From IMG/VR virus record IMGVR_UViG_3300029448_000196, positions 12,579 through 33,025 of that record: DNA of 20,447 nucleotides; one strand, given 5' to 3'. The DNA is from a virus. This document shows positions 461-13,307 of this stretch, piece by piece; positions within the stretch are counted from its first letter, which is position 1, and every line of letters starts with the position of its first letter. The translations under genes and the position numbers were made by a program. The notes under the pieces were generated by a model. It was not told the DNA's origin, ran no database searches, and was given only the letters and a program-made list of their open reading frames with translations.

Positions 461-1174
461 TTATTTATTTAAATTAACAATCGTACTAACACTATCTCTT
501 TGCTTTCTATGTTCAGCATAGAGTTTTCTGTCAGCAGGATTGTTCATGTCTAGTTCCGAAATATTTAAAGTCTTATTCGTGTCCGACTTACCCACATTAC
601 CAACACTTCCACTCCCACTTGGGGTTGCGCTTTGAAAGTGTGCGTTTTGTGTCAAAAACTCTTGCACTGCCTCATCAACAGACAATAAATCTCCGTCTTT
701 GTTATATCGAGGTGTTCCAGAATTATCAAGTACTTCTACCTTACCGTCTTTATTTAGATTTATACTAGATTTTAACAAATCTTTTATTTGTTCTGGATTT
801 ATTGCTTTATGCATTGAGGCAGAATTGATTAATTGTTTATCAACTCTTTCATTCTTTAATTCAGATTCTAATTTTGAAAGTTTGTCATTATATTCTTGCG
901 TCTTTTTTTTCATAACATCATCAAACTTACCACGTTCAATTTGTTTTTCTTCGTCGGCTTTTCTTCTTTCGTCTATGGCTTGTTTGACATCATCTAATGA
1001 CCCAACACCTAATTCATTTAGAATTTTTTGTTCTTGTCTATACAATCTATCTTTTACAACTTTATCAATATCAACCTGTTTTTGTTGTGATTGTTCTGTT
1101 GATTGTTCAATAGGTTGTTCTGTTGCTTCTGTTTTGATTTCTTCAACTTGTTCCGTTTTATTCTCGTCAGACAT
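461..1174 (-). CDS. Capsid scaffolding protein
   Basis: This 237-residue protein is very polar. It has a Glu/Gln/Thr-rich N-terminus (residues 1-35), a long charged helical part with heptad-like spacing (about 36-120, predicted coiled coil) and a Gly/Ser linker near residue 185 (SGSGSVGNVGKS). The short C-terminal helix is rich in Lys/Arg (near 205-230). Scaffold proteins of tailed phages usually have this build: disordered ends, a coiled-coil middle and a basic C-terminal tip that touches the coat. It sits between the head-morphogenesis gene and the capsid gene, the standard scaffold position. The ATG at 1174 is preceded by AAGGAG at good spacing. No protease motif is seen. Function is inferred from composition and context. 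Confidence 0.8.
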   Translation of the reverse strand: MSDENKTEQVEEIKTEATEQPIEQSTEQSQQKQVDIDKVVKDRLYRQEQKILNELGVGSLDDVKQAIDERRKADEEKQIERGKFDDVMKKKTQEYNDKLSKLESELKNERVDKQLINSASMHKAINPEQIKDLLKSSINLNKDGKVEVLDNSGTPRYNKDGDLLSVDEAVQEFLTQNAHFQSATPSGSGSVGNVGKSDTNKTLNISELDMNNPADRKLYAEHRKQRDSVSTIVNLNK

Positions 1175-2154: not shown

Positions 2155-2433
2155 TTATAAAGGGAAATTTTTTTTCCATGCTCTGATTGACCAATAGGCA
2201 GGTGATAATGTTTTTTGACCTTTGACTTTCTTTAAAACACCACCCATTCTTGCTAGAAATGATCTCTGTCTTGCAGGAATATTTTTTTTAATTTTCATCG
2301 TAGGGTCGCCAAATCTTACTATTTTTACATTACCACTTGATTTATCTTTAATATAAACACCAAATTTTTTATTTTTATTTGGAGTTCTGAATGGTTTATT
2401 CAGTTTAACTTGACGACCTTTATAATTTGCCAT
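2155..2433 (-). CDS. Small basic phage protein with MKI-R/K..SF.AR..YW..RAW motif
   Basis: A 92-residue, strongly basic protein. From residue ~24 it reads KFGVYIKDKSSGNVKIVRFG, then GDPTMKIKKNIPARQRSFLA, and later SPAYWSIRAWKKNF. It resembles a motif I know from many phages (FGDPxMxIRKxxPxxRKSFxARHxC...YWSCxxW), often beside or fused to prohead protease and head genes. Here the Cys residues of that motif are absent (YWSIRAW instead of YWSC.xW). Function is unknown; a head or prohead-associated role is inferred from position. Its ATG overlaps the stop of the 26-codon gene upstream by one base (TAATG), so translation is likely coupled. Confidence 0.7.
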   Translation of the reverse strand: MANYKGRQVKLNKPFRTPNKNKKFGVYIKDKSSGNVKIVRFGDPTMKIKKNIPARQRSFLARMGGVLKKVKGQKTLSPAYWSIRAWKKNFPL

Positions 2434-2513
2434 TACTTCTTTTTCTTTTTCTTTTTCATTTTCTTTGGTGGTCTTCCGACCTTAGATCCGTATGTTCCTT
2501 TTCCTTTTGGCAT
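2433..2513 (-). CDS. Tiny lysine-rich protein with AT-hook-like GRPPKK (26 aa)
   Basis: The peptide begins MPKGKGTYGSKVGRPPKK and ends in a run of lysines broken by one Met, then TAA. It is 26 residues long. A good ribosome site (AAGGGA, about 7 nt before the ATG at 2513) and a one-base TAATG overlap with the next gene support a real gene. VGRPPKK resembles the core of an AT-hook, which inserts into the minor groove of AT-rich DNA. I know similar 'MPKGKGTYGS' peptides only as unnamed marine phage proteins. It could be a DNA-binding or capsid-interior peptide; this is inference. Confidence 0.7.
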   Translation of the reverse strand: MPKGKGTYGSKVGRPPKKMKKKKKKK

Positions 2514-2514
2514 T

Positions 2515-2601
2515 TTATTTTCCCTTCTTTTTCTTTTGTTTTTTAAGAATGGCCTTTTGTAAAGCCATTGGTAGTTTTTTTTGTTTCTTTGTTAGTGCCA
2601 T
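2515..2601 (-). CDS. Tiny basic protein MALTKKQKKLP-type (28 aa)
   Basis: A 28-residue peptide, MALTKKQKKLPMALQKAILK followed by KQ and a Lys-rich tail ending GK. The ATG at 2601 has a strong ribosome site (AAAGGATAGG) close upstream. Its stop is one base before the ATG of the 26-residue gene. It has an amphipathic helix (LPMALQKAIL) followed by a polylysine tail. I recognise the pattern from marine phage head regions but know no function. It overlaps the end of the ATG-less Cys/His-rich frame upstream, which may extend to 2543. Confidence 0.68.
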   Translation of the reverse strand: MALTKKQKKLPMALQKAILKKQKKKKGK

Positions 2602-2776
2602 TACCTATCCTTTCAAAATAATGTTCCGAACATAGTAGTTCTAGCATACCAAATCTATAATTAAAACCGAATGTTGCAAATTTACCACAAAAGCAAATTG
2701 AATATTTATTGTGTTGTTCATGTGTCCAATTACAAAAGACACTTGAAGAAATTGTTCGTCCCTTTATTTCTTTTTC
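2543..2776 (-). CDS. Cys/His-rich (zinc-binding-like) frame without ATG: candidate -1 frameshift extension or non-AUG ORF
   Basis: This frame is open from the A-rich end of the preceding 79-codon gene to TAA at 2543 and has no ATG, GTG or TTG at its beginning. The translation looks like a real protein: FCNWTHEQHNKYSICFCGK, then FATFGFNYRFGMLELLCSEH. Cysteines and histidines are spaced as C-x3-H, C-x-C and C-x2-H, like a small zinc knuckle. Two entries are possible. One is -1 slippage on A AAA AAG at 2776-2782, which gives a 153-residue fusion to the upstream basic protein. The other is an ATT start at 2750-2752 with AAGGGA six bases upstream, giving 69 residues. The last ~19 codons overlap the 28-residue gene, so that tail may be incidental. 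Without this frame, 2602-2763 would be an unexplained gap in a gene-packed operon. Confidence 0.5.
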   Translation of the reverse strand, partial: EKEIKGRTISSSVFCNWTHEQHNKYSICFCGKFATFGFNYRFGMLELLCSEHYFERIGNGTNKETKKTTNGFTKGHS

Positions 2777-3003
2777 TTTTTTCGTAAATCTAAGTCGTGC
2801 TTACGACTACCTCGTAAGAATGAATTTACCCTACCCATTGACCAAGCCGCCATAGGCACTCTGCGACTACCACTTGATAAAAATGCACCTTGCCCTCTAC
2901 GATAAACTTTAGCTAATGTTCCATAGGTATATCTTTTTGATGCTTTTGCTTTTCTTTGTAGTGTTGCTTTTACAGAAGCCGATAAAGGTTTTCTTGCAAC
3001 CAT
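2764..3003 (-). CDS. Small basic phage protein (79 aa)
   Basis: A 79-residue, highly basic protein. A central segment TYGTLAKVYRRGQGAFLSSG is followed by RRVPMAAWSMGRVNSFLRGS and a tail of KHDLDLRKKKKK. The pattern Y-x-x-L-x-K-V-Y-x-R-G-x-x-A(F/W)...W-x-M-x-R-V-N-S resembles a family of small proteins common in marine phages, sometimes fused to larger head proteins; its function is unknown. Its ATG overlaps the stop of the preceding gene by one base (TAATG). The last six codons contain a perfect slippery heptamer, so the C-terminus may sometimes be replaced by the Cys/His-rich extension. Confidence 0.7.
   Translation of the reverse strand: MVARKPLSASVKATLQRKAKASKRYTYGTLAKVYRRGQGAFLSSGSRRVPMAAWSMGRVNSFLRGSRKHDLDLRKKKKK
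2776..2782 (-). promoter_or_regulatory. Candidate -1 ribosomal frameshift site (A AAA AAG)
   Basis: On the minus strand the codons at the end of the 79-codon gene read CGA AAA AAG AAA AAG AAA TAA. The heptamer A AAA AAG is in exactly the phase used for -1 slippage, as at the E. coli dnaX site. After slipping, the ribosome would read GAA AAA GAA ATA AAG GGA and enter the Cys/His-rich frame. A weak downstream hairpin (GTGTC/GACAC, about 40 nt away) is visible, but I see no strong stimulator. A lysine-rich tail in an AT-rich genome can create this heptamer by chance, so the confidence is moderate. Confidence 0.4.
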
Positions 3004-6188: not shown

Positions 6189-7068
6189 ATTTTTTTAACA
6201 CAATTCCATATTCATTTACGCCTTTTGGTATGTCAATATCGTCACGTAATAACAAATGATTTTCTCTTTTGAACTTATTATAATTAACATAATGGTGCCA
6301 ACGACCATATCGCCATGTCACTCTTGAAACATCTGGGTGTAATTTCAGTTGCATTTGAGATTTTGGCACTGTTCCCTCTTTTGCATAAAATTCTGCTGTA
6401 TTCCCACCTTTAACTGTTTGTGTTCTAGCTTTTTCTTGTAAAAATATATTGAATTGAATAGTACACCAACCTGCTTTTAACATCTGTAAAGACAGATCAG
6501 TATCTTCGTTATATCTACCACGCCAACGAAAAGGCACATCATTACGAATTAAATTACAACTATAAATTCTTGTATTGACTGTGAATGGCCCATATCTATC
6601 ACCCCATTTATCAATAACAAAGAAAGTATAGTTAGGTCCTGCCATTGCTACATTCTTATAACGCAAACAGAAATCTTCCATGACACGCCACATAACACCG
6701 TCATAAATTTTTATTCTTTTATTTTTATGCCACCTACGAAAACATTTAATATTATCGTCCATTACCCAATGCCATTTATGACCTTCACTTATTGAATGGT
6801 CCCATATAAAATTTCTTGCAGCCCCAGGTCCAACGCTTTTTGACAAACCTAAATCATCACATGTATTATAATTTTCTTGGTAGCTTTTATCTAAAACTAG
6901 AATGTTTTTTTTATCTATAACTTTTGCATAATCAGAATATTCTTGCTCTTCTACTACAACACAATACGGAACATTCATTTGTTCCAGAGCTTTTACTGTT
7001 AGGCGACTTTCTGATCTACCTTTGGTTGGTATATATATTGGAAACTGAGGTTTATTCTTCTGTGACAT
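6175..7068 (-). CDS. TET-associated-type glycosyltransferase (DNA base hypermodification, predicted)
   Basis: 297 residues. A GT-A-like N-terminus has IPIYIPTKGRSES (11-18 region) and VPYCVVVEEQEY, then VGPGAARNFIWDHS (79-92). The metal-binding-like motif VMDDNI follows (Asp104-Asp105) and then the catalytic-region-like RYNEDTDLSLQMLKAGWC (187-191 NEDTD). This layout matches the TET-associated glycosyltransferase (TAGT) family, which attaches sugars to oxidised 5-methylcytosine in phage DNA. The gene lies between a ParB-like gene (17 nt overlap) and the small terminase, so modification would act on DNA about to be packaged. No TET oxygenase, cytosine methyltransferase or nucleotide hydroxymethylase is in this window. 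The acceptor base is therefore unknown, and partner genes may lie outside. An AAGGG site precedes the ATG. Confidence 0.75.
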   Translation of the reverse strand: MSQKNKPQFPIYIPTKGRSESRLTVKALEQMNVPYCVVVEEQEYSDYAKVIDKKNILVLDKSYQENYNTCDDLGLSKSVGPGAARNFIWDHSISEGHKWHWVMDDNIKCFRRWHKNKRIKIYDGVMWRVMEDFCLRYKNVAMAGPNYTFFVIDKWGDRYGPFTVNTRIYSCNLIRNDVPFRWRGRYNEDTDLSLQMLKAGWCTIQFNIFLQEKARTQTVKGGNTAEFYAKEGTVPKSQMQLKLHPDVSRVTWRYGRWHHYVNYNKFKRENHLLLRDDIDIPKGVNEYGIVLKKFDNQ

Positions 7069-7675
7069 AACCCTTGTCTTTTAAGACATTTTTATCAATT
7101 CTTGGAAACCATATATATTTTGTTTTTTCTGTGTAATCTTGCTTTATCATTTTAAAAAATGTTTCAACTGCTTGTTTGTTTACAAAATTTACTCTGATTG
7201 CCATATATGGTGATAAATCATCATGTTCAAAACTTGGCATACCTTCCCATTCTTTTTCTGTATCAAGCCATTCTTTGTCGCCTCGATCAAATGTAATAAT
7301 ACTTTCAAGTTCTGCTTCTTCAAAACCTAAATTACTTAAATCGTAATTGACATCTAAAAGTTCACCTAATTCTTTGTGAAGTTTTGAAAAATCCCAATCA
7401 GAATATTGGTTTGTTTTATTATCTGCAATACGATATGCCTTTGCCTTTTCTGGTGATATGTCAGCAATAACAACAGGTACTTTTTCATATTGCAGCATTT
7501 TTGCTGCCTCATATCTTGAATGACCTGCAATAATTACAAAATTTTTATCAACGACAATAGGTTGTTGCCAACCATATTCTTTAATAGAATTTGCAACTTT
7601 CTCTATATCTCTTTTTTGTCTAGGATTTTCTTCGTAAGGTTTTAATTCTTTTAAATTTAATTCTAATACTTCCAT
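7052..7675 (-). CDS. ParB/sulfiredoxin-fold protein
   Basis: 207 residues. The N-terminal ParB-like nuclease/CTPase-type domain shows YEENPRQ (14-20), a helix, VVDKNFVIIAGHSRYEAAKM with the signature GHSR at 51-54, and then AYRIADNKTNQYSDWDF. The C-terminal half (YMAIRVNFVNKQAVETFF, then KYIWFPRID) is a phage-type extension of unknown role. Phage ParB-like proteins of this type are often found beside DNA methylases, glycosyltransferases and terminases; a few have nuclease or ATP/CTP-dependent DNA functions. There is no ParA partner and no HTH, so a plasmid-style partition role is unlikely. Its end overlaps the glycosyltransferase start by 17 nt, arguing that the two are co-expressed. Confidence 0.85.
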   Translation of the reverse strand: MEVLELNLKELKPYEENPRQKRDIEKVANSIKEYGWQQPIVVDKNFVIIAGHSRYEAAKMLQYEKVPVVIADISPEKAKAYRIADNKTNQYSDWDFSKLHKELGELLDVNYDLSNLGFEEAELESIITFDRGDKEWLDTEKEWEGMPSFEHDDLSPYMAIRVNFVNKQAVETFFKMIKQDYTEKTKYIWFPRIDKNVLKDKGYVTEE

Positions 7676-12556: not shown

Positions 12557-13307
12557 TTCAGTATTTAAAAAATTTGATTTATTGCCAATGTCGTATAGCA
12601 AACTAAATTCTTTTTCAAATTTCCCCTGTCAATTTATAATTAATAAAATTTATAAACAAGACACAGGAATTAATCCTGCAATGCGTGTAGGTCATCTTGT
12701 AGAAGAAATGCTACATGAAAAATTATTAGGTGATGAGCCAGATCAAGCAGAATATCAAAATAAACTAGAAGACGAATTGTTTGATTATCACGATCAAGAT
12801 AATTTAAACAAATATATTAATTATATCCCACAATTCTATAACCAATGTTTACCTTTATTTCAAAAATTAGGTAATTATAAATTACATAGTTATCAAGAAG
12901 AAATAAAAACTAATATTCTTGGAATTGATTTTATTGGATATACAGATTTTATTTTTGATCTTGATGATTGTTTATTTGTTTATGACCTTAAAACAAAGGG
13001 CAGAATGGCAATTAATCATTCCGAATATTTACAACAATGGGTTTATAGAAAAGCATTACAAGAAAAATATAATAAACCTGTACATTGTCATTTGTATATT
13101 GTGACACCTAAAAAGTATCATATTGAAGATATTGAATTTAGTGACGATATAGAGATTGAAGTACATAATAAATTAAAAGGAATGGCATCTATGTTGCAAA
13201 AATGCAACACACCAGAAGATATTGCACTTTTATACCAACCTAATCTTGATAGTTGGGAATGGAATGTACAAACAATTCCTGCAAGAAAACAAATATGGGG
13301 AATTTAG
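12546..13307 (+). CDS. RecB/Cas4-family PD-(D/E)XK exonuclease
   Basis: About 253 residues from ATG 12546, which overlaps the upstream stop; an in-frame TTG at 12516 is longer but deep inside the previous gene. Near the start PMSYSKLNSFSNFPCQFII is the typical opening of RecB-type phage nucleases, followed by RVGHLVEEMLHE (His/Glu of motif I). The core is DFIGYTDFIFD with VYDLKTK (D...D-x-K) and QQWVYRKAL (the Q-x-x-x-Y motif). It would resect DNA ends for the Erf annealing protein. It is the last gene of the rightward block. No plus-strand terminator is clear after it. Confidence 0.87.
   Translation: MLDSSVFKKFDLLPMSYSKLNSFSNFPCQFIINKIYKQDTGINPAMRVGHLVEEMLHEKLLGDEPDQAEYQNKLEDELFDYHDQDNLNKYINYIPQFYNQCLPLFQKLGNYKLHSYQEEIKTNILGIDFIGYTDFIFDLDDCLFVYDLKTKGRMAINHSEYLQQWVYRKALQEKYNKPVHCHLYIVTPKKYHIEDIEFSDDIEIEVHNKLKGMASMLQKCNTPEDIALLYQPNLDSWEWNVQTIPARKQIWGI

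Follow-up and report, generated by a model that had tools for sequence, protein, structure and literature searches.

How a small protein can be translated from a reading frame that overlaps the end of another gene in the -1 frame and has no ordinary start codon is the question raised by the head operon studied here. The window, that is, the whole stretch of DNA analyzed (20,447 nucleotides, positions 12,579 to 33,025), belongs to the 33,025-base IMG/VR virus record IMGVR_UViG_3300029448_000196, and every feature treated at the locus lies on its minus strand. There, the gene order is terminase, portal, a 71-aa protein, gene A (79 aa), the Cys/His frame, a 28-codon gene, a 26-codon gene, and a 92-aa protein. 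Gene A (2764–3003) is an open reading frame for a basic head-operon protein that matches phrog_28338 (unknown function, E=2e-19) and, weakly and under the cut-off, Pfam DUF5824. Its relatives occur in the pelagiphages HTVC026P, HTVC111P, and HTVC202P, so that the window likely derives from a SAR11 phage. An earlier, sequence-only reading of the locus had proposed two routes into the Cys/His frame, a -1 slip on a heptamer at the end of gene A or initiation at an ATT codon.

A conserved Cys/His reading frame behind gene A

As that reading had stated, the -1 frame is open from the heptamer to its stop codon (2543–2545), contains the motifs C-x3-H, C-x-C, and C-x2-H, and lacks ATG, GTG, and TTG altogether; a -1 slip would give a fusion of exactly 153 residues, as computed from the sequence. 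Its view that a well-formed Cys/His protein is encoded was borne out by relatives in 74 distinct viral-contig haplotypes with invariant ligands, and the assembly error that it had named as a possible objection is ruled out, since the gene order recurs in 31 haplotypes. The 74 haplotypes were gathered in viral-contig scans, three of them started from the Cys/His protein or from alignments of it, a fourth from another homolog, and one from gene A; they include L235, which was excluded from the counts that matter. In positions 1–160 of L235 (IMG/VR contig 3300032087_000109), the Cys/His gene is joined to poly-C and an Illumina adapter (CTTTCCCTACACGACGCTCTT...), identifying it as an assembly chimera.

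Among 21 aligned Cys/His sequences C20, C22, C41, and H44 are invariant, with C-x-C and C-x2-H present without exception, and the core follows the consensus VSxxEFxNWTHQQHNxKKCFCGKFAxIGFNYRFGMLELLCxxHYxER. The gene is under purifying selection with conserved zinc-ligand positions. Judged by this conservation, the Cys/His frame truly codes for protein and is a previously unnamed small gene. Read from the ACG codon discussed below, it would span 2543–2785 (80 codons plus stop), with a zinc-finger-like domain at about 2752–2603 delimited by family conservation and AlphaFold. The AlphaFold model of the core has a fold of two helices, a beta-hairpin, and a helix (mean pLDDT about 85–90 over residues 1–50). 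It shares with treble-clef/GATA-like and ribosomal-protein zinc fingers the C-x-C knuckle, the beta-hairpin, and the C-x2-H at a helix. In contrast to these fingers, no sequence family was found for it in the curated libraries (Pfam, PHROGs, NCBIfam), and a Foldseek search against the PDB gave nothing significant (E>1; its top matches, GATA fingers and ribosomal proteins of archaea, were insignificant); the best viral match had E=0.098. The product may be a free zinc-binding protein of about 80 aa. Its position in the head operon, its small size, and its basic neighbors suggest that it may serve as a minor structural or packaging-related DNA/RNA-binding protein. Gene finders miss such a gene, and relatives were found neither in cultured phage records, none of which reports it, nor in contigs of the genome collection.

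Genomic contexts of the Cys/His gene

The Cys/His gene was found in four contexts. In context 1, that of the window, it follows gene A in the -1 frame, with the TAA of gene A at -14 from a conserved Val/Ile codon; none of the 31 haplotypes has an ATG, GTG, or TTG start. In context 2 the preceding gene encodes a protein of about 245 aa with the C-terminus EDVTYSA, and the Cys/His gene lies in the +1 frame, mostly with an ATG 30 nt upstream that has no well-placed Shine–Dalgarno (SD) sequence. In context 3 it overlaps a more distant gene A in the +1 frame and starts with TTG or ATG 42 or 39 nt upstream, with an SD 8–13 nt before the start; one member, L230, lacks this start and SD and has a GTG further down. 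In context 4 it stands behind related or other structural-type genes and starts with TTG or, in L239, with a clean TAATG giving MPKGNKVS. The sequence-only reading had held that homologs started by ATG as separate genes would speak against a frameshift; such stand-alone homologs, in another frame and mostly with ATG or TTG, do occur elsewhere, but none was found within the clade of the window. Since the gene has ordinary starts behind other genes, it is normally stand-alone, and context 1 is the odd one.

In a tree of gene A, context 1 forms a single clade (93/95 support), whereas in the Cys/His tree members of context 2 group with members of context 1 (100/95 for the group holding L027). This mixing indicates that the gene has moved between neighbors, and the Cys/His family, as far as the trees tell, shifts between head-operon positions.

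Near-identical Cys/His genes were also seen behind two unrelated upstream genes, in the +1 and -1 frames (L008, L017, and L191 versus L027 and L153). They seem to be alike from the upstream stop codon (TAAAAGG/TAAAGG) onward, which indicates that recombination has swapped the gene in front. In the context-2 homologs L013 and L014 (positions 2974–3003 in both), no ATG, GTG, or TTG precedes the Cys/His core, and ATA stands where relatives have ATG; these two are a second candidate for noncanonical initiation.

In the contexts other than that of the window, the upstream stop codon precedes the conserved Val/Ile codon by 10, 4, or 1 nt, always 1 mod 3. A +1 frameshift as the general mechanism there was rejected, as the codons before the stop (GCC, TCC, GGG, GAC, GAA) show no consistent tendency to shift, and an ATG or TTG is present in most of these homologs.

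Coding constraint upstream of the ATT codon

The ATT codon at 2750–2752 does have, as the sequence-only reading had proposed, AAGGGA at 7 nt, and all clade members carry an SD-like AAGG or AGGG at this distance. The start itself was contradicted by the codons immediately upstream. Between the stop codon of gene A and the Val/Ile codon, and hence outside gene A, lie four codons of the Cys/His frame, Lys-Gly-Arg/Lys-Thr (AAG GGA CGA ACA in the window, 2753–2764), in which 16 of 21 parsimony changes on the clade tree fell at third positions (p=7e-5) and the only replacements were between K and R. This excess indicates that the four codons are translated in the Cys/His frame and that the start is not the ATT. 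In nearly all relatives the codon aligned to ATT reads GTA or GTT, otherwise ATT or ATA, and wherever it was read it is never ATG, GTG, or TTG; AUU is thus not conserved at the position, as a rare AUU start of the infC type would demand. The SD-like sequence is missing in several homologs (L029, L030, L191, L273). Initiation at ATT is therefore very improbable; the codon is taken as an internal Ile/Val codon, and translation enters the Cys/His frame before this point, where the frame overlaps gene A.

Conserved SD-like sequence, hairpin, and ACG codon in the 3′ end of gene A

Among all 12-codon stretches of gene A, the final one (GSRKHDLDLRKK) showed by far the strongest synonymous suppression in the clade. 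Parsimony counts of synonymous and other changes were made for each codon in clade and control; judging from the gene body, 38% of the changes would be expected to fall in the clade. The 3′ end had 20 changes in the clade versus 100 in the control (p=3.6e-7), and the best stretch of gene A away from the 3′ end reached p=0.0037. The last 13 codons of gene A are also a signal for the next frame. The pattern can be read as an RNA element made up, in 5′ to 3′ order, of GAGGU, AGUCG, the loop NAAACA, CGACU, 7 nt, and ACG.

GAGGU (2809–2813), an SD-like sequence within Arg-Gly codons of gene A, is predicted to pair with the 16S 3′ end at -6.6 to -7.3 in 31/31 clade haplotypes; in gene A copies without a Cys/His gene the pairing energy is variable, with a mean of -5.5. 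The third base of its Gly codon changed 0 times in the clade versus 10 times in the control. The adjoining hairpin (2793–2808) has a 5-bp stem and a 6-nt loop, and all five pairs are possible in 31/31 clade members versus 1/64 sequences outside. The synonymous changes lie in the loop base N, which changed 7 times, and one stem pair varies, as G-C or G-U; among the 31 clade haplotypes, whose stem hardly varies, no compensatory double changes were found. In longer contexts, other folds of the window's own sequence compete with the hairpin, which is then not the most probable one (P 0.00–0.61, depending on context), and a lower stem AGGU/ACUU could hide the SD.

The ACG (2783–2785), a candidate start codon of the Cys/His frame 7 nt after the hairpin, is invariant in 31/31 haplotypes, a count that weighs less than 31 independent cases, context 1 being one lineage. 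It is formed by the third base of a Leu codon and the start of an Arg codon of gene A; the Leu third base changed 0 times versus 5 in the control, and the Arg first base 0 times versus 6. The Arg codon CGT, which would put a TAA directly after the ACG, occurs at this position in 0/31 clade haplotypes versus 17/64 controls, whereas in the same clade 13/31 have CGT at a neighboring Arg. By these comparisons, the SD-like sequence, hairpin, and ACG are conserved beyond the needs of gene A itself and solely where the Cys/His gene follows, and the 3′ end of gene A holds a real noncanonical entry signal, just upstream of the heptamer. The reading of this element as SD, hairpin, and start codon was drawn after the conservation pattern had been viewed and not predicted beforehand. 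A terminator was rejected as an explanation of the hairpin, because the A run that follows it on the coding strand fits neither direction.

The slippery heptamer and its distribution

The 3′ end of gene A reads CGA AAA AAG AAA AAG AAA TAA, and the perfect heptamer A_AAA_AAG claimed for 2776–2782 is indeed present on the minus strand in the phase of gene A. AAAAAAG occurs 19 times in the window versus 19.0 expected from shuffles, so the heptamer alone means nothing. Asked of the homologs, the slip site was kept in part: some in-phase slip motif is present in 31/31 haplotypes with the gene order of the window, and the perfect heptamer is not conserved. A_AAA_AAR was found in 6 of 30 distinct clade members versus 19 of 52 gene A copies without a Cys/His gene, and any in-phase slip motif in 30/30 versus 37/52 (Fisher p=7e-4, uncorrected for kinship). 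Most clade members have C_AAA_AAG, which leaves just the tetramer A_AAG. Gene A copies without the Cys/His gene have lysine tails too, many with a perfect A_AAA_AAG, and the slip motif is thus mostly a by-product of the lysine tail.

Possible internal initiation at ACG and competing routes into the frame

Internal initiation at ACG 2783–2785 is the route that we favor over a -1 frameshift, tentatively and with rather less than even confidence. In this mechanism, a stand-alone zinc-finger-like gene would have come to lie behind gene A in the -1 frame without a canonical start, and ribosomes would start inside the end of gene A. The GAGGU, 23 nt upstream of the ACG, would be too far away alone; the 5-bp hairpin would take up 16 nt and leave 7 nt. 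That the hairpin bridges the SD to the ACG, and that the ACG serves as initiation codon, is what we infer from a known arrangement in T4, in which a hairpin cuts the SD-AUG spacing of gene 38 from 22 to 5 nt and that of gene 25 from 27 to 11 nt (PMC3014915). The present locus resembles this split ribosome binding site in its distant SD (23 nt versus 22 and 27), in the hairpin between, in the residual spacing (7 nt versus 5 and 11), and in the conservation of the element in close relatives and its absence in distant ones. It differs in that the putative start is ACG in 31/31 haplotypes rather than AUG or another recognized start (GUG, UUG), that the element is part of the coding sequence at the end of the preceding gene, and that it is known here from sequence alone. 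A near-cognate codon would be the sole start in the overlap that spares gene A, because an NTG in the -1 frame needs a TGN (Cys/Trp) codon, which is absent from the conserved tail. In context 3, a sister arrangement, the SD lies in the homologous Arg-Gly part of gene A, 8–13 nt before the TTG or ATG of the Cys/His gene, which argues that in context 3, too, the gene is read by internal initiation from this part of gene A. Against the ACG stands that it is a very poor bacterial start, which in one E. coli reporter gave 0.1–1.5% of the ATG level (PMC6925171), and the yield would be low; an unstimulated slip is not clearly better. The tetramer A_AAG is barely shifty in E. coli without a stimulator: unstimulated tetramers gave 0.147% versus a background of 0.112%, marginally above it, and unstimulated heptamers were 2- to 10-fold above theirs (PMC4066793).

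A programmed -1 frameshift would take place on the lysine run, which reads A_AAA_AAG in the window and C_AAA_AAG or A_AAA_AAA in relatives, and would yield a minor form of gene A extended C-terminally by the Cys/His protein, with the SD and hairpin possibly acting as stimulator; we consider it somewhat less likely than initiation at ACG and the most serious competitor. It accords with the -1 relation of the frames, which have no stop before the join, with the in-phase slip motif in 31/31 haplotypes, and with the presence of such a motif in all clade members as opposed to 37/52 copies outside. The stop codon of gene A (2764–2766) is moreover TAA in 31/31 clade haplotypes and never TGA, although this single change would place an ATGA or GTGA start in the Cys/His frame, as if a free protein were unwanted. 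Like dnaX/IS911-type signals (PMC4066793), the window has an in-phase A_AAA_AAG, an overlapping -1 frame, and an SD-like sequence upstream, and a slip motif precedes the overlap in all 31 haplotypes if tetramers are allowed. Unlike in those signals, the SD is 26 nt (linear) from the slip site instead of 10–14 nt, no downstream stem-loop or pseudoknot was found, and the heptamer is neither conserved beyond background nor commoner than in relatives without the second frame, the third bases of the lysine codons being ordinary. Folding scans of 12 clade members, in which pseudoknots were not exhaustively covered, gave no consistent signal of a downstream stimulatory structure, with z-scores scattered around 0 except in L004. 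In a 70S system, an upstream hairpin that adjoins the slip site attenuates -1 shifting (PMC6321510), and homologs in other phages stand alone, which also speaks against a fusion.

Transcriptional slippage was set aside, as the A runs are short (A5–A6; A8 in L004 and L005). In a known case of hairpin-driven transcriptional slippage one base is deleted, which would give the wrong frame for Cys/His.

Termination–reinitiation, in which a ribosome that has stopped at the TAA of gene A would step back by one base and restart on the overlapping GTA or ATA (ATA 2765–2767 in the window) to give Met-Lys-Gly-Arg-Thr, is improbable. Its geometry equals the ATGA overlap that starts the next gene in many gene A relatives; in nearly all gene A copies without the Cys/His gene the next ATG lies at the stop of gene A (ATGA or TAATG), as in pelagiphage head operons, where the next gene likewise starts within a few bases of that stop. 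The homolog L239 with its TAATG, and the conservation as codons of everything from Lys-Gly onward, also fit. However, the overlap codon in the clade of the window is GTA or ATA, which is no start, next to an invariable TAA; GTA hardly initiates, and the change to TGA that would make a proper start is found in 0/31 haplotypes. The distance from hairpin to stop varies (4, 5, or 6 codons after the Arg) and that from hairpin to ACG is fixed, and reinitiation leaves the conservation of SD, hairpin, and ACG unexplained. A role of the hairpin as operator for a regulatory protein or as RNA-processing site, with the Cys/His frame reached by another, unrecognized route, appears unlikely to a similar or slightly greater degree: the stem is conserved and the A-rich loop constant in the clade, as such a site would predict, but the element is found just where the Cys/His gene follows and directly beside the entry to its frame.

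If the ACG start is true, near-cognate initiation would here be workable, in a natural and conserved case, thanks to RNA structure, and the split-site idea from T4 would extend to an overlapping gene. That ACG initiation occurs naturally in bacteria and is conserved throughout a marine phage clade, forced by an overlap and served by a hairpin-bridged SD in the preceding gene, is possible rather than probable. If the frameshift is true, it would be one in a head operon rather than a tail gene, and one without the usual stimulators. Either outcome would show by what means a gene survives in a compact phage genome once recombination has separated it from its start codon.

Neighboring genes in the window

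The 28-codon gene MALTKKQ... (2515–2601, minus strand, MALTKKQKKLPMALQKAILKKQKKKKGK) shares 59 nt with the 3′ end of the Cys/His gene and is followed by the 26-codon gene (2433–2513, minus strand, MPKGKGTYGSKVGRPPKKMKKKKKKK), both being tiny, very basic head-operon genes. Relatives of the 26-codon gene reappear behind the Cys/His gene in several contexts. A 308-aa gene, for which the family search gave no match, lies upstream of a gene for a head scaffolding protein (461–1174, minus strand; phrog_206, E=2e-13). Upstream of the terminase genes, the minus strand encodes a ParB/Noc-like N-terminal domain at 7052–7675 (NCBIfam TIGR00180, E=3e-13, under its cut-off).
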